21,497 nt of DNA from a virus, in the IMG/VR virus record IMGVR_UViG_3300022929_000261, positions 1-21,497 of that record. The stretch is one strand, 5' to 3'. Both the position numbers and the translations under genes were made by a program. This document shows positions 3,951-11,842 of the stretch, piece by piece. Below the pieces are notes generated by a model. The model did no database searches and had not been told where the DNA came from. It saw only the letters and a program-made list of their open reading frames with translations. Every line of letters begins with the position of its first letter. The first letter of the stretch is position 1.

Positions 3951-5201
3951 ATGAAGTCACTACGCACATACATTGCAGAAGATGCCCAAGGTAAGAATCT
4001 ACACCTCGAACACATAGAGGATGACATTCTTAACTTTGGCGTAGATGGAGCAAGAGCCGCTATCAATTTCTTGCGCTCACTCCGAGACATGCTTGCTGGC
4101 TCAGCAAGATCCTCTGTCAACATGACTGTAAAATGGGATGGCGCACCCGCAATATTTGCAGGCACAGATCCTTCTGATGGCAAATTTTTTGTCGCTAAGA
4201 AATCTGTGTTTAACAAAACACCGCTGTTATATAAAACAGCAAAGGAAATTGATGCTGACACTAAACTTCCTGCATCGCTAAAGTCTAAGTTTAAAATAGC
4301 GTTGGATGAGTTTAGTAAGTTAGGCATTAAAAATGTGTTGCAGGGCGACTTGATGTACACATCAAGCGACTTGAAACCAGAAACGATAGATGGGCAACGA
4401 TACACTACTTTCCAACCTAATACAATCGTCTATGCAGTCCCAGTAGGCTCGCCCCTGGACGCCATTATTAAACGAAGCAAAATCGGTATCGTCTGGCATA
4501 CATCGTACTCTGGCTCTTCTCTTCCTGAAATGAAAGCATCTTTTGGTGCTAACATAAAAGGCTTGAGAAAGACACCTTCTGTTTGGATGGATGATGCTAC
4601 CTATAGAGATGAATCAGGTACAGCAACATTCACTAAAGCAGAAACAGATGCTATCACTTCACTGTTGAGTGTAGTTGGTAATAATCTGAGAAAAGTAAAT
4701 TCAGCACAATTGAATAACTTCAATGCATTACAAAAAAGCCTAGATGGAAAAATGGTAGGAGCGCAGTATAAAACATACAATAACTCCAAAGTCCGTGCTA
4801 GACAGGAAATAACAAATGTTTCGGCACATGTCGAGGGTTATATGACTTGGGTTGAAGAAAAATTTGACGCTGAGATATCAAAACTCAAAACAGAAAAAGC
4901 ACAGTCTGCACTTGAACAAAGAAAAGCAGAAATGCTAAAAGAGTTTGGTAGACTGAAATCTATGCTAGTTGCAGTAACAGAGTTTCAAGTTTCAGTAGTC
5001 AAAGCAAAAATGATGATAGTTAAAAAACTAGATCAAGTTAAAGGCATTGGCACATTTATTAAAACTGCAAACGGCTTTAAAGTTACTACCCCAGAAGGCT
5101 ATGTTGCAATTGATAGAATTTCTGGTAGTGCAGTCAAGTTAGTTGATCGAATGGAATTCAGTTACAATAACTTTACAGCTATTAAGGCATGGGACAAGTA
5201 A
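3951..5201 (+). CDS. putative nucleotidyltransferase/RNA-ligase-like protein with capsid-targeting-type N-terminus
   Basis: A 416-residue protein that I remember as a conserved hypothetical of marine T4-like phages (possibly the DUF6267 family). Motifs fit the covalent nucleotidyltransferase (ligase/capping) fold: KWDGAP with Lys61 as motif I (K-x-D-G), VLQGDLMY (129-136) as a motif III-like strand, PEGYVAI (Glu382) as motif IV, and AVKLV (Lys396) as motif V. T4 RNA ligase 1 has a similar EGYVAV followed by KIK, from memory. A helical, coiled-coil-rich insertion of about 200 residues separates motifs III and IV, so the assignment is tentative. The N-terminus MKSLRTYIAE-D resembles the T4 capsid-targeting sequence with an I-A-E cleavage site. 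No Shine-Dalgarno site precedes the ATG; a late promoter does. Confidence 0.6.
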   Translation: MKSLRTYIAEDAQGKNLHLEHIEDDILNFGVDGARAAINFLRSLRDMLAGSARSSVNMTVKWDGAPAIFAGTDPSDGKFFVAKKSVFNKTPLLYKTAKEIDADTKLPASLKSKFKIALDEFSKLGIKNVLQGDLMYTSSDLKPETIDGQRYTTFQPNTIVYAVPVGSPLDAIIKRSKIGIVWHTSYSGSSLPEMKASFGANIKGLRKTPSVWMDDATYRDESGTATFTKAETDAITSLLSVVGNNLRKVNSAQLNNFNALQKSLDGKMVGAQYKTYNNSKVRARQEITNVSAHVEGYMTWVEEKFDAEISKLKTEKAQSALEQRKAEMLKEFGRLKSMLVAVTEFQVSVVKAKMMIVKKLDQVKGIGTFIKTANGFKVTTPEGYVAIDRISGSAVKLVDRMEFSYNNFTAIKAWDK

Positions 5202-5203
5202 CC

Positions 5204-5437
5204 ATGAAGAAGTTTATTGAATGGTTTAAGTCTCTATTTAAAACACACATAGAAGTTACTTTGTGGTTTGCTAGTGTCTCTGCTGAAGGATTACCCAAAA
5301 CTGATAAAGTTGTTTATGTCTTAAAAAGACTTGATAAAATTACTGACAAAGAACTAAAAGGCATAGAAGAAAACGGAAACAAATTGCACATGAAATGTAT
5401 AACACCTTTTGATTACAGGGTGAGGAAGGCAAAGTGA
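5204..5437 (+). CDS. small hypothetical protein
   Basis: A 77-residue, Lys-rich protein (starts MKKFIEWFKSLFKTH, an amphipathic helix) with a strand-like middle (IEVTLWFASVSAEG) and basic end. I do not recognise it. The start could also be ATG 5189, which overlaps the previous gene by 13 bases; I prefer 5204, two bases after that gene's stop, with GGGA at 5191-5194. The stop overlaps the next start as TGATG. Its position in a tight late operon supports it being real. Confidence 0.55.
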   Translation: MKKFIEWFKSLFKTHIEVTLWFASVSAEGLPKTDKVVYVLKRLDKITDKELKGIEENGNKLHMKCITPFDYRVRKAK

Positions 5438-5646
5438 TGATATTTGATTTCAACCACTTAAAGAAAGTAAACAGCAATTACTGGCATCATTGGTATCATG
5501 CAATGGTCCTAAATGTTAGTTGGCTAGGGGTGTTTGTACTAGGCACAATACATGCCTTTATTCCATTTCTATTTCCAGAAACTCCTTACAGACTATCAAA
5601 AAGAATTATAAAAAGAGCAGAGGAGAACTTTGATTTAGATGAATAA
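5437..5646 (+). CDS. small membrane protein (DUF6356-like)
   Basis: A 69-residue protein with one membrane segment (about residues 26-46: VSWLGVFVLGTIHAFIPFLF) preceded by an aromatic and His-rich stretch (YWHHWYHAM) and followed by a basic and then acidic tail. The HAFIPFLFPETP block resembles a small membrane family I recall as DUF6356. The ATG at 5437 overlaps the previous stop (TGATG) and AGGAAGG at 5423-5429 is a strong ribosome site; a GTG at 5434 is an alternative. Role unknown; proximity to the lysozyme gene makes a lysis function possible but unproven. Confidence 0.6.
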   Translation: MIFDFNHLKKVNSNYWHHWYHAMVLNVSWLGVFVLGTIHAFIPFLFPETPYRLSKRIIKRAEENFDLDE

Positions 5647-6256
5647 GACAATAGTATTTGCTTTCGGGAGACTGAATCCTCCCACATCTGGTCACAGTAA
5701 ACTCGTGGATAAAGTATTCAGCGAGGCTCAGAAGCGCCGTGCTGACCATCGGGTTATTGTCAGTCATTCACAAGACAAACATAAAAATCCTCTGACAGCA
5801 CAGCAAAAAATTACCTATCTAAAAAGCATTCATCGAAATATAAAATTCGATGCATCTGATAAACAACATCCTCATTTCATGGCTCATTTGAAAAAAATGT
5901 ATGAGCAAGGATATGAAGAAGTGTTTATGGTTGCTGGTTCAGATAGGGTATTAGAATTTCAGCGGCTCGCTGATAGATACAATGGTAAAGATTACAAATT
6001 CAAAACCATCAAAGTTATTTCTGCTGGTGAACGAGATCCTGATGCCGACGGTGTTGCAGGAATCAGCGGAACAAAAATGAGAGCATTTGCCTCCAACAAC
6101 GATTTCAAATCTTTCAAAATGGGTCTGACACCAGGCGCAAGAGATGCCGATGCTAAGAAATTATTCAATGCGGTAAGAAAAGGTATGCAACTCAAGGAAG
6201 GGCAAGTGCGTTATTTAACATTTGCAAATTTTTTAAAGGAAGAACACAATGAATAA
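5639..6256 (+). CDS. HIGH-type nucleotidyltransferase (cytidylyl/NMN adenylyltransferase-like)
   Basis: A 205-residue nucleotidyltransferase of the alpha/beta-phosphodiesterase superfamily, which transfers AMP or CMP from a nucleoside triphosphate to a phosphate-bearing substrate. It has the first signature FGRLNPPTSGH (9-19, T-x-G-H type) and the second signature ISGTKMR (142-148). Substrate cannot be read; similar phage proteins are often annotated cytidylyltransferase or NMN adenylyltransferase. The last residues, YLTFANFLKEE (192-202), look like the capsid-targeting-type tag seen at the start of three neighbouring proteins, but here it is C-terminal. The start overlaps the previous gene by 8 bases; AGAGGAGA lies upstream at a rather long spacing. 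Confidence 0.75.
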   Translation: MNKTIVFAFGRLNPPTSGHSKLVDKVFSEAQKRRADHRVIVSHSQDKHKNPLTAQQKITYLKSIHRNIKFDASDKQHPHFMAHLKKMYEQGYEEVFMVAGSDRVLEFQRLADRYNGKDYKFKTIKVISAGERDPDADGVAGISGTKMRAFASNNDFKSFKMGLTPGARDADAKKLFNAVRKGMQLKEGQVRYLTFANFLKEEHNE

Positions 6257-6695
6257 AGAAGCAGTATACGAACAATTAAAAATAGATGAAGGTGTTGAGT
6301 ATGAAATCTACAACGATCACCTCGGATACCCAACCTTTGGAGTGGGTCACCTTATCATCGAAAGTGACCCGGAATTCGGAAAACCGGTTGGAACTCCAGT
6401 TGATGAAGAAAGAGTCCGGGAAGTATTTGATAGAGACCTTGAAACTTCCATCGGAGAGTGTCACGCTCTATACGGAGAAGGGTGTTTTGGAGACTTCCCT
6501 GATGAAGTCCAACAAATCCTGGTTAATATGATGTTTAACATGGGTAGAACGAGACTCAGCAAATTCAAGAAAATGAATGAAGCACTCGAGGCTGGCGATT
6601 GGAAGACTGCCGCAGTTGAAGGTCGTGATAGCCGTTGGTACAAGCAAGTTACTAACCGGGCTGAAAGGTTGATGTCCAGACTAGAAGCTGTATAA
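6249..6695 (+). CDS. T4-type lysozyme (endolysin)
   Basis: A 148-residue glycoside hydrolase 24 muramidase that cuts peptidoglycan at the end of infection. The catalytic triad of T4 gpE (E11, D20, T26) is present with identical spacing as Glu14 (IDEG), Asp23 (YNDHLG) and Thr29 (PTFGVGH). The C-terminal family block is also clear: VNMMFNMG, then SRWYKQVTNRAERL. T4 gpE is 164 residues, so this is slightly short but complete. There is no signal peptide, so it needs a holin; none is certain in the window. AAGGAAG sits 7 bases before the ATG, which overlaps the previous stop by 8 bases. Confidence 0.95.
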   Translation: MNKEAVYEQLKIDEGVEYEIYNDHLGYPTFGVGHLIIESDPEFGKPVGTPVDEERVREVFDRDLETSIGECHALYGEGCFGDFPDEVQQILVNMMFNMGRTRLSKFKKMNEALEAGDWKTAAVEGRDSRWYKQVTNRAERLMSRLEAV

Positions 6696-6698
6696 ATA
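6691..6698 (+). promoter_or_regulatory. T4-type late promoter (TATAAATA)
   Basis: A perfect TATAAATA octamer overlapping the last codons of the lysozyme gene, 25 bases before the ATG at 6724. The predicted transcript would start near 6704 and give a leader of about 20 bases. Confidence 0.65.
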
Positions 6699-6723
6699 AT
6701 AAAAAATCTGGGACTTATCTACA

Positions 6724-8715
6724 ATGCAAAAATCTTTTTTAGATTTCATACCCTTGGAAGAAGGTGTCAATGATCCTGGCATCTTCAAAGCTGTCTTTTT
6801 GGCTGGCGGTCCAGGTAGTGGTAAGTCCTTTATTGTTGGACAAACTGCACTCACTTCACTCGGTCTGAAGTTAGTAAACTCTGATGATGCTTTTGAGGCT
6901 TTGCTTCGTAAAGCAAACATAGAAGCAACTCCTGAGAATATTTTCTCAGATAAGGGACAAACGATTCGTGGTAGGGCTAAGAGTCTCACGCAGTCTAGAC
7001 AAAAAGGATTCATTGATGGTAGACTAGGTCTTGTCATTGATGGTACTGGCAAAGACTTTGCTAAGATTCAAAAGCAAGTTGTAGAACTGAGAAAACTCGG
7101 CTACGAATGTGCTATGGTATTTGTCAATACTGACTTAGAAACAGCGCAAAACAGAAATGCCGCAAGAGCAAGAACACTTCCTTCCCAAGCAGTCTCTAAA
7201 ATGTGGAACGATGTACAAAGGAACATCGGTAAGTTTCAGAACTTATTCGGTAGATATATGTTTATCGTTGATAATTCAGACGGCGCTAATTGGGAAGGAG
7301 CTACTATGTCCGTGTATAGACGAGTAAGTCGGTGGGTGAAAGAACCCACACAATCTCCTGCCGCTAAGAGATGGGTTCAGGGTCAAAAGAAGTCTAGGGG
7401 CATAAAAGAAGGAAAAGAACATTCTTGGAAGTCTGAAGGTCATTACACAAAAGACGGTAAAGAATGGAAAGGACCTCAACATGCACACGATGGTCAAGTG
7501 ATGACTGGTGAAAAACACACCGATGATAGTCAGAACTTGTATCACTTCAAAGAACTGCCTAAGCCTGTACAGCAAAAACTTCTTGCTAAGATGAAACTCA
7601 AAGAAGATTTAGGTTTACCCCCAATGCAAAAACTATCTAAACTCAAGCCTACAAAATCTCTTGAGCAAAGACGACAAGCAAAGAGAAGAGAGTCCAATAA
7701 ACCATTCGATGCTAAAATCAAAGACAATGCAATTGATGAGGTGTTTCGTTGGATGATGGATCCTCTTGCTAAAACTGTTCATAGAACTCAGTACAGGGCT
7801 GCCGCTAAGTTGTTGAAACAAATAATTGACCGAAAAAAGAAAGAGGGCGGAGGAAGACTCCGACATGGTATTGAATGGTATGCACTTAAAGCGGCAAAAC
7901 AAGTTTCAGATAAAGTTGATGCAAGAACCCTTGCTAACATGGTAAAAGAAGGCTACGATCCTGTTAAGCATGAATGGGGAACCGATGCTGGCAGAGATTA
8001 TTACTTGAGTCTTACACCTGGTCAGAAAAAGAAAAAGATTGAAGACATCAAGCCCGTTGATACTCCTATCAAAGAGGATTGTGGGTGCGAAGAAGATGAT
8101 GATTGGATGGAATATCTTCATAAAATTGAACTCAGTGGGTTTTCAGATAATGATATAGCAGAGATAGACAATGAAATAGATTCTCTGACCTTCGATGACA
8201 TGGTTGATATGGGACTCTATGATGATGACGAACTTGAAGAAGTCGAAGTTGATGTGCATGATGACATCAATATCACAGAAGAACAACTAGATGAAGTGCT
8301 TTCGATTCAAGGTAGAATGAAGCGCAGATTCCATGCGAGAAGAAACAGACAAAAACTTAAAGTTGCTAGAATGCGCAGAAGCAGAATGGCATCTGACCCT
8401 GGTCGAATTAAGATGAGAGCGGCTAGAGGTGCTAGAGTTTTGATGAAAAAGAGACTAGCCCGAGGCAGAGATATAGGTGCTATGCCACCCGCTGAGAAGG
8501 CTAGAATTGAAACACTGCTCAAAAGATTTCAACCTCTTGTTACCAAGATGGCACAAAGAATGATTCCCCAAGTCCGTAAAGCAGAAATGGGTCGTTTGAA
8601 AAAACGAGGCTCAATGAAACCTCAGGCTTCAAAGAAGTTTAAAATTAAAAAGGGCGGCAGTGCTTCTAAATATAAAGCTAAGAAGTTTAAGATTAAAAAG
8701 GCAGGCAAGAAATGA
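6724..8715 (+). CDS. modular protein: polynucleotide-kinase/zeta-like kinase domain plus basic packaging-type modules
   Basis: A 663-residue modular protein. Residues 1-14 (KSFLDFIPLEE-G) form a capsid-targeting-type tag with an L-E-E site. Residues about 20-200 are a P-loop kinase: Walker A AGGPGSGKS (Lys34), SDDAFE, VIDGTGKDF, and a lid-like block NRNAARARTLPSQAVSKMW, which resembles the RNSKR...P.DVLRSMY region of T4 polynucleotide kinase (from memory) and also zeta-toxin-type kinases. A middle part carries His/Gly-rich and helical modules, then a very acidic linker (about 455-520). The C-terminal 140 residues, after an L-D-E site (522-524), are extremely basic (RMKRRFHARRNRQ...) and end in a KKFKIKK repeat, suggesting nucleic-acid binding. 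A late promoter precedes it; only a weak GGGA serves as ribosome site. Confidence 0.7.
   Translation: MQKSFLDFIPLEEGVNDPGIFKAVFLAGGPGSGKSFIVGQTALTSLGLKLVNSDDAFEALLRKANIEATPENIFSDKGQTIRGRAKSLTQSRQKGFIDGRLGLVIDGTGKDFAKIQKQVVELRKLGYECAMVFVNTDLETAQNRNAARARTLPSQAVSKMWNDVQRNIGKFQNLFGRYMFIVDNSDGANWEGATMSVYRRVSRWVKEPTQSPAAKRWVQGQKKSRGIKEGKEHSWKSEGHYTKDGKEWKGPQHAHDGQVMTGEKHTDDSQNLYHFKELPKPVQQKLLAKMKLKEDLGLPPMQKLSKLKPTKSLEQRRQAKRRESNKPFDAKIKDNAIDEVFRWMMDPLAKTVHRTQYRAAAKLLKQIIDRKKKEGGGRLRHGIEWYALKAAKQVSDKVDARTLANMVKEGYDPVKHEWGTDAGRDYYLSLTPGQKKKKIEDIKPVDTPIKEDCGCEEDDDWMEYLHKIELSGFSDNDIAEIDNEIDSLTFDDMVDMGLYDDDELEEVEVDVHDDINITEEQLDEVLSIQGRMKRRFHARRNRQKLKVARMRRSRMASDPGRIKMRAARGARVLMKKRLARGRDIGAMPPAEKARIETLLKRFQPLVTKMAQRMIPQVRKAEMGRLKKRGSMKPQASKKFKIKKGGSASKYKAKKFKIKKAGKK
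8632..8701 (+). repeat. direct repeat encoding KKFKIKK
   Basis: Two 22-base copies, 8632-8653 and 8680-8701, are identical at 21 positions. They encode KKFKIKK twice at the C-terminus of the kinase-like protein, separated by GGSASKYKA. The repeat lengthens the Lys-rich tail and probably arose by tandem duplication. Confidence 0.8.
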
Positions 8716-8999
8716 TTTCATTTAAAGAATATTTGAATGAAGAAAAAGGTATGGAAGGCATGACCGTCAAGGGTGGTCATAAACTTCCTGTTAGCAAAGG
8801 TGCTGGCTTAACCAAAAAAGGTGTTGAAAAATACCGCAGACAGAACCCTGGTAGCAAACTGCAAACTGCTGTAACTACACCTCCCAGTAAACTTGACCCT
8901 GATAGCAAAGCGGCTAAGAGAAGAAAATCTTTCTGTGCCCGTTCTAGAAGTTGGACAGGCGAAAGAGGTAAAGCCGCCCGTCGTAGATGGAACTGCTAA
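8712..8999 (+). CDS. small basic protein with capsid-targeting-type N-terminus (DUF6321-like)
   Basis: A 95-residue, strongly basic protein. The start MISFKEYLNE-E resembles the T4 capsid-targeting sequence with an L-N-E cleavage site. The rest, including KKGVEKYRRQNPGSKLQTAV, KAAKRRKSFCARS and a C-terminal GKAARRRWNC, matches a conserved phage family that I recall as DUF6321. Its charge suggests DNA binding, like T4 internal proteins. The ATG overlaps the kinase-like gene's stop (ATGA) and the ribosome site is weak, so translation may be coupled. Two Cys residues are conserved in the family as I remember it; their role is unknown. Confidence 0.7.
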   Translation: MISFKEYLNEEKGMEGMTVKGGHKLPVSKGAGLTKKGVEKYRRQNPGSKLQTAVTTPPSKLDPDSKAAKRRKSFCARSRSWTGERGKAARRRWNC

Positions 9000-10099: not shown

Positions 10100-11842
10100 A
10101 TGTCAGATATTGACGCTATCAAGAGAGTGCTGTTAGGCGAAAAGACAGACAGAATGCGAAAGCTGGACCTTCTTGTTCGGCAAGGTATGATGTCTCCTGC
10201 TCAGTTGCCTATGCTACACAGAGGCTTAGAAAAACTGCAAGCGGGTAAAACCCTTAATCCAAACGAAAGAGCCTCTGTTGCTAGAGTCATGGATTCTCTG
10301 TTGTATATTGTCACTGGTGATGACACTGTATTTCAAAGAGCTAAACAGCATACACAGAAAAATCGCTATCAGACTGAAGAACAAGATGTTGAACTAACAG
10401 AAGAAGAAATCGAGTTTGATGAAGAAAAACAAAGACTCGATCCTAAATGTTGGGACGGTTATAAGAAGAAGGGCACCAAGATGAAAGGTGATACCCGTGT
10501 GAATAACTGTGTCAAAGAAGAAGCAAAAGAAGAAGTAGAGCAGGTGCAGGAAGAACTGCCGGATCATTTGAAAAAAATTCTTGATAAGAAAGGAAATATT
10601 GATCCTAAGAAAGTACCAGGAGCTAAAAAATCAGATGCAAAAGTAACTGATGTTACTCCCAAAGGATATGGTCCCAAAGAAGAAGTCGAAATTGACGAAA
10701 AAGTAAAAGACATGTCAATGGGTGAAGTTATCAAAGACTTCCAAAAGTCTGACGCCCCACAATTCAAAGGCAAGTCTAAAGAAAAGAAAAGAGAAATGGC
10801 AATCGCCGCTAAACTAAGTGCGGAGGAAGATATGAAAGAAGGCTACTACAAAGACATGGATACTAAAAAGAAAGAAGATAATAGGTTGGCTAAAAAACCT
10901 ATCAAACTCCGCGGCTTTGGTCCAGACGCTGGTAAGAGCAACATGAGCAATCCAGCAGCCAGAGCGGCTTTGATGAAGAAAGAAGAAGCAGAACAGGTCA
11001 ACGAATATATCACAGCTAAACAAGTAAAAATGGCTAAAGGTATTGCCAACGACCCAAGACATAAGGGTGGCGACATGACTGGCGCCGCCAAGAAAATGGA
11101 AAAGATTAAGAAAGGTCTTTCCAATCACCCAGGTGCGCAGAAAGCACTGAGACAAGCAAACGAAGAGTTTGCTGACTACACGGACGAAGAGTTTGATGCT
11201 TTGATTGAAATGTCCTACAAAGATAAGTTTCAAGCTATGTTGAAGAAGAAAGGCAAGGCACTTGCTGATATGTCAGACGATGAGAAAAAAGGCTTCTTCA
11301 ACTCTGTAGATGCGGCGCATAAAGCAAAGAATGAAAACTTTATGTCCGATATTAAAGGGCAGTTGAACTCTAAAAAGAATGCTAAGGCTTCTGACATTCT
11401 TGCCAAGAGAAAGGCAGACAATGAGAAAGCTGTCAAAGATATGAAGACGATGGCTCCTCATATGAAGAACCCTGCATTGGGCGAAGAAGTAGAGCAGATT
11501 GAGGAGATCACTGCCGCACAGCAAGCCGCAAGAGATGCAAAACAACCCGGCGCAACGAAAGGTATGGCTCCCACTAAAAAAGATAAGCCAGACCTAGTAC
11601 ACAAAGAGCCAAAGAAAGGTCAAAAGCAACCACATGGAGAACACATTGTGGTTCAGATGCGTAAGGCTATCACAGCAAATAAGCCAGTGCAATTTAAAGA
11701 CGGTTCATCGAAGGTCGTCAACAAAGCACACGCACACAAATTCCTGTCGAAGTATATGTCATCTAAACCCGCAAAGAAAGAAGAGATGCATGGTGCGCAC
11801 GACAGTCACGATTCTTTTATGAAACATGTAAACGATAAGTAA
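10100..11842 (+). CDS. modular head-associated-type protein (580 aa)
   Basis: A 580-residue hydrophilic protein of short modules joined by acidic linkers. Modules seen: an N-terminal helical block (1-85); a Cys-containing block CWDGYKKKGTKMKG..NNC (117-137); a basic block YITAKQVKMAKGIANDPR..HP (303-350); MSYKDKFQAMLKKKGK (371-386); and a C-terminal block GEHIVVQMRKAI..AHAHKFLSKYM (513-553). I recall the same blocks shuffled in other marine T4-like phage proteins. The linkers contain (L/I)-x-E sites, for example ELTE-E (101), EIDE-K (200), LIE-M (370) and QIEE-I (469), which fit prohead protease cleavage. It may therefore be a precursor of internal head peptides. Function is inferred, with no enzyme motif. 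It has a strong ribosome site and a late promoter. Confidence 0.65.
   Translation: MSDIDAIKRVLLGEKTDRMRKLDLLVRQGMMSPAQLPMLHRGLEKLQAGKTLNPNERASVARVMDSLLYIVTGDDTVFQRAKQHTQKNRYQTEEQDVELTEEEIEFDEEKQRLDPKCWDGYKKKGTKMKGDTRVNNCVKEEAKEEVEQVQEELPDHLKKILDKKGNIDPKKVPGAKKSDAKVTDVTPKGYGPKEEVEIDEKVKDMSMGEVIKDFQKSDAPQFKGKSKEKKREMAIAAKLSAEEDMKEGYYKDMDTKKKEDNRLAKKPIKLRGFGPDAGKSNMSNPAARAALMKKEEAEQVNEYITAKQVKMAKGIANDPRHKGGDMTGAAKKMEKIKKGLSNHPGAQKALRQANEEFADYTDEEFDALIEMSYKDKFQAMLKKKGKALADMSDDEKKGFFNSVDAAHKAKNENFMSDIKGQLNSKKNAKASDILAKRKADNEKAVKDMKTMAPHMKNPALGEEVEQIEEITAAQQAARDAKQPGATKGMAPTKKDKPDLVHKEPKKGQKQPHGEHIVVQMRKAITANKPVQFKDGSSKVVNKAHAHKFLSKYMSSKPAKKEEMHGAHDSHDSFMKHVNDK

Follow-up and report, generated by a model that had tools for sequence, protein, structure and literature searches.

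A movable tag resembling the T4 capsid-targeting sequence on candidate packaged enzymes of Kyanoviridae-like marine phages

The stretch analysed here (IMG/VR record IMGVR_UViG_3300022929_000261, 21,497 nucleotides, hereafter the window) is a 21.5 kb fragment of a T4-like marine myovirus close to Melnitz (Kyanoviridae), and it appears to carry part of a "cargo island" in which four neighbouring genes bear a short tag resembling the capsid-targeting sequence (CTS) of phage T4. We think it very probable that this tag loads enzymes into the phage head, where a gp21-type protease cuts it and from which the enzymes are injected with the DNA. Because one of the four tags, that of the gene at 5639, is C-terminal, we describe the system, on the pattern of its sequences, as a variant of the T4 CTS/internal-protein system in Kyanoviridae-like phages, with enzymes as putative cargo and tags that seem movable.

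Under this reading an amphipathic [FYL]xx[FY][LI] segment would dock the cargo on the prohead core, a gp21-type S77 protease would cut past the nearby (L/I)xE to release the enzyme, and the released enzyme would remain in the head beside the DNA and enter the cell upon infection. The parts would be ordered tag then site at an N-terminus, site then tag at a C-terminus, or with the tag between two fused cargo domains, and additional (L/I)xE junctions would divide fused proteins. We lean slightly toward a fuller, modular version, in which the movable tag marks polyproteins as well as enzymes, the prohead protease cuts their (L/I)xE junctions, and the cleaved kit that is injected comprises a nucleotidyltransferase, a ligase-like enzyme, a kinase and DNA-binding proteins.

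Leaders of the window and the T4 pattern

A sequence-only reading of this DNA had proposed that three genes, starting at 3951, 6724 and 8712, share a leader like the T4 CTS. All three leaders are found at those starts: MKSLRTYIAEDAQG opens the DUF6267 protein at 3951 (416 residues), MQKSFLDFIPLEEGVNDP the P-loop kinase at 6724 (663 residues) and MISFKEYLNEEKGM the DUF6321 protein at 8712 (95 residues). The T4 sequence given there for comparison, MKTYQEFIAE, was right, because IPII and IPIII in the T4 record read MKTYQEFIAEA; IPI reads MKTFKEFTST. Mutants of the T4 CTS have tied residues 4 and 7 to targeting and residues 8 and 10 to processing (PMC9026906), and two of the window's leaders match all four mapped positions: MKSLRTYIAE (3951..3980; L4 and Y7, then IAE, with a predicted cut after E10) and MISFKEYLNE (8712..8741; F4 and Y7, then LNE). 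All coding features of the window given here lie on the plus strand.

All three leaders have a hydrophobic or aromatic residue at positions 4 and 7 and an (L/I)xE after it; in the third, MQKSFLDFIPLEE (6724..6762), additional residues precede the cleavage-type site (FIPLEE), which makes it a variant of the pattern. The (L/I)xE of this leader (LEE) is displaced by a few residues, as in the homologue MDKTFKDFLPLEEG; other homologues of the kinase begin MIKFKQFLDEG, MKTFNQFLQEG or MLKFSQFISEG, and those of the DUF6321 protein MKTFVDFINED, MKDFKTFLAED, MLKFKTFVSED or MKTFSEWLEEE. The set of three was also incomplete, since the nucleotidyltransferase encoded at 5639 carries a fourth tag at its C-terminal end (LKE-GQVRY-LTFANFLKEE). 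With altered residues the leader is found across hundreds of relatives, in families that share no domain: DUF6267, kinase, DUF6321, cytidylyltransferase, S-adenosylmethionine (SAM) hydrolase and APH-like kinase.

Conservation and placement of the tag

A uniform scan of open reading frames (ORFs) for [FYL]xx[FYWH][LIMV]xE near the start returned two N-terminal tags in the window (null mean 0.14) and, at C-termini, one (null 0.16). The same scan recovered IPII, IPIII, gp61.1 and one likely chance match in T4, and no tag in the podovirus P-SSP7; a loose version of the pattern gave no signal. Since enrichment within single genomes is weak, we used conservation across families as the main evidence. 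As a separate observation, T4 gp61.1 (54 residues; AF158101, 18966-19130, minus strand; locus L347) begins MKTFKEFIKEDMVA, a near-perfect CTS, and is possibly an unrecognised T4 internal protein.

In shuffle tests, which take sequences as independent and leave kinship among homologues outside the null model, [LIMV]xE is kept in 51/51 distinct DUF6267 leaders (shuffled mean 16.4, maximum 28), the full core is present in 33 of these 51 (shuffled 0.5, maximum 4), and the C-terminal tag core occurs in all 29 distinct C-termini of the window's clade of the cytidylyltransferase (shuffled mean 0.28, maximum 3). Even the shortest DUF6267 leaders, such as MISLMENK and MINLLEGK, hold the (L/I)xE site.

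The cytidylyltransferase best illustrates how the tag changes place. In the window it is a 205-residue cytidylyltransferase/NMNAT-like protein (5639..6256; PF01467, PHROG cytidyltransferase), the second of the putative cargoes, and its C-terminal end, LKEGQVRYLTFANFLKEEHNE, contains the tag LTFANFLKE (6215..6241) preceded by an (L/I)xE site, L-K-E (6191..6199). An [LI]xE-type site upstream of the tag is likewise kept in 29/29 C-termini. Among cyanophage homologues of the same enzyme the tag is N-terminal in 42/42 distinct sequences (for example MRFRQFIIEA, MRFIEFIREA and MLTFHVFITEA), and at two loci (L264 and L281) a single ORF runs from cytidylyltransferase through the tag (GMKDFKTFLAED) to DUF6321. 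In every arrangement, N-terminal, C-terminal or inter-domain, a candidate cut site lies between tag and cargo domain. Outside the cytidylyltransferase family, C-termini that resemble the tag were mostly chance-like in the genome scan.

Sites of the same type mark domain junctions. The protein at 6724 has an L-D-E (8287..8295) where its acidic linker meets its basic domain, and in 33/33 distinct homologues [LIMV]xE falls within 2 residues of LSxQGRMKR; in Melnitz the basic domain stands alone as a protein that bears a tag itself, MKKFSELTSELIE. Tag and junctions together form the pattern that a cleaved, tagged polyprotein would be expected to display. At three loci (L131, an 856-residue ORF, L103 and L109) the kinase domain lies behind other sequence, and the junctions there keep (L)xE (FDLDEGVYDP, VTLDEGVNDP) and have no tag core.

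Protease, virion proteins and competing explanations

The sequence-only reading had named the lack of a prohead protease as a point that would count against packaging. A gp21-type protease (PF03420) is absent within the 21 kb fragment and present in its relatives, which leaves the proposal standing: the domain occurs in the cultured phages Melnitz, S-SZBM1 and S-CREM2 and in six uncultured relatives, of which two are DUF6267-bearing contigs and four are further long contigs, among them a 165 kb relative. No cultured relative and no contig longer than 100 kb that we examined lacked it, whereas shorter contigs gave a mixed picture. None was found in seven shorter DUF6267-bearing contigs, as may be the case for fragments. 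T4 gp23 is cut at SFLTE65|A, and the major capsid proteins of the relatives have a site at the same place (FLSE52|A, ILTE52|A and LLTE56|A; the 165 kb relative has VFSE52|A). The gp21 proteases themselves have tag-like C-termini (KISAFHEFLQSL, ALAFAKFLSKL and VFSSFLNKLSKI; L092-L096, L335, L336), which perhaps serve as the route of the protease itself into the core.

We compared published virion proteomes with the N-termini of the listed proteins. In S-CREM2 (PMC10665884 Table 3) the virion proteins include a SAM hydrolase (MKDFDSFLEE), an APH-like kinase (MKRFDAFLTEE) and a cytidylyltransferase (MKNFSSFLTEA), as well as gp13 (MKDLHSFLTE) and gp136 (MQTFSMFFSED). Non-structural proteins of this phage were detected in virions in 4/5 cases with a strict leader versus 9/107 without one (p=0.0005), a comparison that was not blind because the pattern was fixed after these N-termini had been seen. 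The S-SZBM1 cytidylyltransferase detected in virions begins MRFRQFIIEA. For S-SCSM1 and S-CRM01 the pattern was already fixed beforehand: in the 49 kb of S-SCSM1 that were read, the sole strict-leader ORF is an NMNAT (MKSFLQFLKEA) labelled as a virion protein, and the virion protein gp93 (69 residues) has a C-terminal tag, RTFKEFLEYIE; the kinase of S-CRM01, which has been cited as present in virions, begins MISFDQFLSEKK. Both of these checks agree with the pattern. Homologues of the window's cytidylyltransferase are among the virion proteins of S-CREM2, S-SZBM1 and S-SCSM1, and cytidylyltransferase, kinase and SAM hydrolase of relatives were detected in CsCl-purified virions. In S-SZBM1 and S-CRM01 the DUF6267 protein has no such leader, and the absence of the leaderless S-SZBM1 protein from that phage's virion list fits packaging by tag and proves little. 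It is probable that these phages deliver a set of enzymes into the cell together with their genome, which would follow cleavage in the head. As a side observation, the Cas9-like S-CREM2 gp12 (L088, 7704-10313), found in virions, has two tag-like stretches, LRFASFMAEAA near its start and KTFRDFLN at its end.

Several points weigh against tag-directed packaging and injection. Cleavage after the tag is something that we infer, and the window itself is a fragment without gp21. The excess per genome is small (2-4 N-terminal tags versus a null of about 0.5), the S-CREM2 leader pattern was set with its N-termini known, and the same test in S-SZBM1 was not significant, with 1/5 leader proteins detected (p=0.57). 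Several island proteins detected in virions, S-CREM2 gp156 and gp160 and S-SCSM1 gp90, have no clear tag. Furthermore, the proteomes come from other phages, none of them a near relative of the window's, and their authors warn that enzymes could be co-purified contaminants.

Alternatively, the tag may dock proteins on some other assembly, such as the replisome, a transcription complex or a non-virion scaffold, with (L/I)xE as part of the docking motif. The position of the island between replication genes (flanked by a gp41-type helicase at one end and at the other by a gp61-type primase and nrdA), the tag-like C-termini of the gp21 proteases and the indirect case for cleavage at (L/I)xE would all suit this idea, which we nevertheless consider unlikely: published virion lists include tagged proteins, the pattern coincides with the mapped T4 CTS positions, and (L/I)xE is kept both at the 33/33 junctions that have no core and in leaders as short as MISLMENK. 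It is less probable still that the tagged proteins serve in the prohead core or in assembly and, like T4 gp22, are mostly cut up and lost and do nothing in the next host. A scaffold role is unlikely for enzymes whose catalytic motifs are conserved, and the recovery of cytidylyltransferase, kinase and SAM hydrolase from purified virions of relatives does not agree with such a fate, even though T4 core proteins do end as peptides (PMC9026906) and the charged linkers of the proteins at 6724 and 10100 contain numerous (L/I)xE sites.

Chance likeness of short N-termini, or a functionless leader inherited from a common ancestor, might account for a motif that is short and has few matches per genome. 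This seems to us highly improbable, as the pattern stays constant while residues vary in families that share no domain, the tag of the cytidylyltransferase is N-terminal in some phages and C-terminal in others, and shuffles fall short of the observed counts; apart from the unmodelled relatedness of the sequences, the conservation tests largely exclude it. Loading by a CTS-like tag, with cleavage and injection to follow, is the reading that we retain.

Known systems, cargo and the island

With the T4 CTS and internal proteins the system shares a leader some 10 residues long, in which positions 4 and 7 are hydrophobic, position 8 is I/L and position 10 is E, together with the S77 protease gp21, here in relatives, and basic or early-acting cargo. 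It differs in its putative cargo of enzymes and domain fusions, in its occurrence in Kyanoviridae-like marine phages, in tags that are also C-terminal or between domains, and in allowing Leu at position 4. T4 Alt, an ADP-ribosyltransferase that is packaged and injected, likewise has a short N-terminal propeptide, but its leader (MELITELFDE) and enzyme class are different; its C-terminal processing by gp21 is known (PMC9026906). In the giant phages SPN3US and phiKZ a prohead protease strips propeptides from packaged ejection proteins (PMC5694885), although those propeptides are far longer, many exceeding 100 residues, and have no short CTS-like core. Polyvalent effector proteins (PMC9503650) also fuse several effector domains, are packaged in the head and are thought to be injected; the accessible part of that report names no CTS-like tag, and (L/I)xE at junctions is a feature of the present proteins.

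In T-even phages the leader is already known as a means of detecting ip genes (PMC12373910), and NMNAT/cytidylyltransferases and APH/ChoK-like kinases have been reported from virions of S-CREM2, S-SZBM1, S-SCSM1 and S-CRM01, the cytidylyltransferase being homologous to the window's and the same leader being present on these virion proteins. As far as their accessible text goes, the cyanophage proteome papers report detection alone, name no targeting tag and leave contamination open. In literature outside subscription papers, a search on capsid targeting and cyanophages returned only a T4 review mentioning both, and we found no report naming the tag outside T-even and giant phages; within that coverage there seems to be no earlier account of such a system in Kyanoviridae-like phages, of enzymes as its cargo, or of tags at a C-terminus or between domains. 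Cyanophage virion studies repeatedly find enzymes and cannot separate cargo from contamination, and a readable tag would supply a sequence rule for cargo that could be applied to marine T4-like phages, of which hundreds have been sequenced, and to uncultured relatives of these. The T4 internal-protein system, with its small anti-restriction proteins, would thereby widen to take in a set of enzymes in phages that are abundant in the ocean. The predicted C-terminal and internal tags are testable and could help to load foreign proteins into phage heads.

The first putative cargo, the DUF6267 protein (3951..5201; PF19782, E 3e-105), had been called ligase-like, which its core supports: K61-W-D-G is invariant in the alignment, and the ten best VIA-align matches are all RNA/DNA ligases, led by RNA editing ligase 1 (1xdn; Z 7.0, root-mean-square deviation 3.2, 109 aligned) and including T4 RNA ligase 2 (Z 6.5), with all Z values below 8. 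Foldseek with both DUF6267 models gave no significant match, and a DUF6267 profile search against PDB sequences gave none, so that among the structure comparisons VIA-align alone pointed to ligases. The modelled core fold may thus resemble that of ATP-dependent RNA/DNA ligases, and the leader falls outside the confident part of the model (residues 1-17, pLDDT < 50).

The kinase call for the third cargo (6724..8715; PF13671, E 3.5e-11; homologues L097-L176) likewise agrees with Pfam (AAA_33, Zeta_toxin); the tag is followed by an AAA_33/zeta-like P-loop kinase, an acidic linker and a very basic C-terminal domain (8296..8712) that probably binds DNA. For the fourth, the small basic DUF6321 protein (8712..8999; PF19846), DNA binding is a guess from basic composition; the virion protein gp137 of S-CREM2 also has a DUF6321 domain at its C-terminal end. 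In the host the cargo may act in RNA-end, NAD or nucleotide metabolism, or in anti-defence; T4 Ip1-3 are anti-restriction proteins (PMC12373910).

Methylophilales phage Melnitz (Kyanoviridae) is the nearest cultured relative, with a DUF6267 protein 65% identical to the window's, and the closest long relative is a contig of 165,637 bases (G010, locus L255) that shares with the window the gene order DUF6267, cytidylyltransferase, lysozyme, kinase, DUF6321. The island follows a gp41-type helicase in Melnitz, S-SZBM1, Syn9, S-SCSM1 and HTVC008M, and its far border, where read, is formed by a gp61-type primase and nrdA. At the DNA level, comparison of the whole window with phages gave, among the matches listed, only a tRNA-Arg region (411-489, about 90% identical to a Proteus phage tRNA-Arg).

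The same island encodes an untagged, charged protein of 580 residues (10100..11842) with an LDPKCWxGYKKxGTK domain, a possible further virion cargo. This domain is also found in the virion protein S-SZBM1_139, and a CWxGYxKKGTK stretch that looks similar by eye occurs in the virion protein S-CREM2 gp160. In its longer form, LDPKCWxGYKKxGTKxKxGxxVNNCV, the domain recurs in island and virion proteins (L275, L265 and the window protein at 10100-11842) and sometimes sits between the tag and DUF6321. Finally, a RimK-like ATP-grasp protein of Melnitz (L081, 82-1131) begins LTQKFSQFITEEPKE and is a candidate packaged enzyme.

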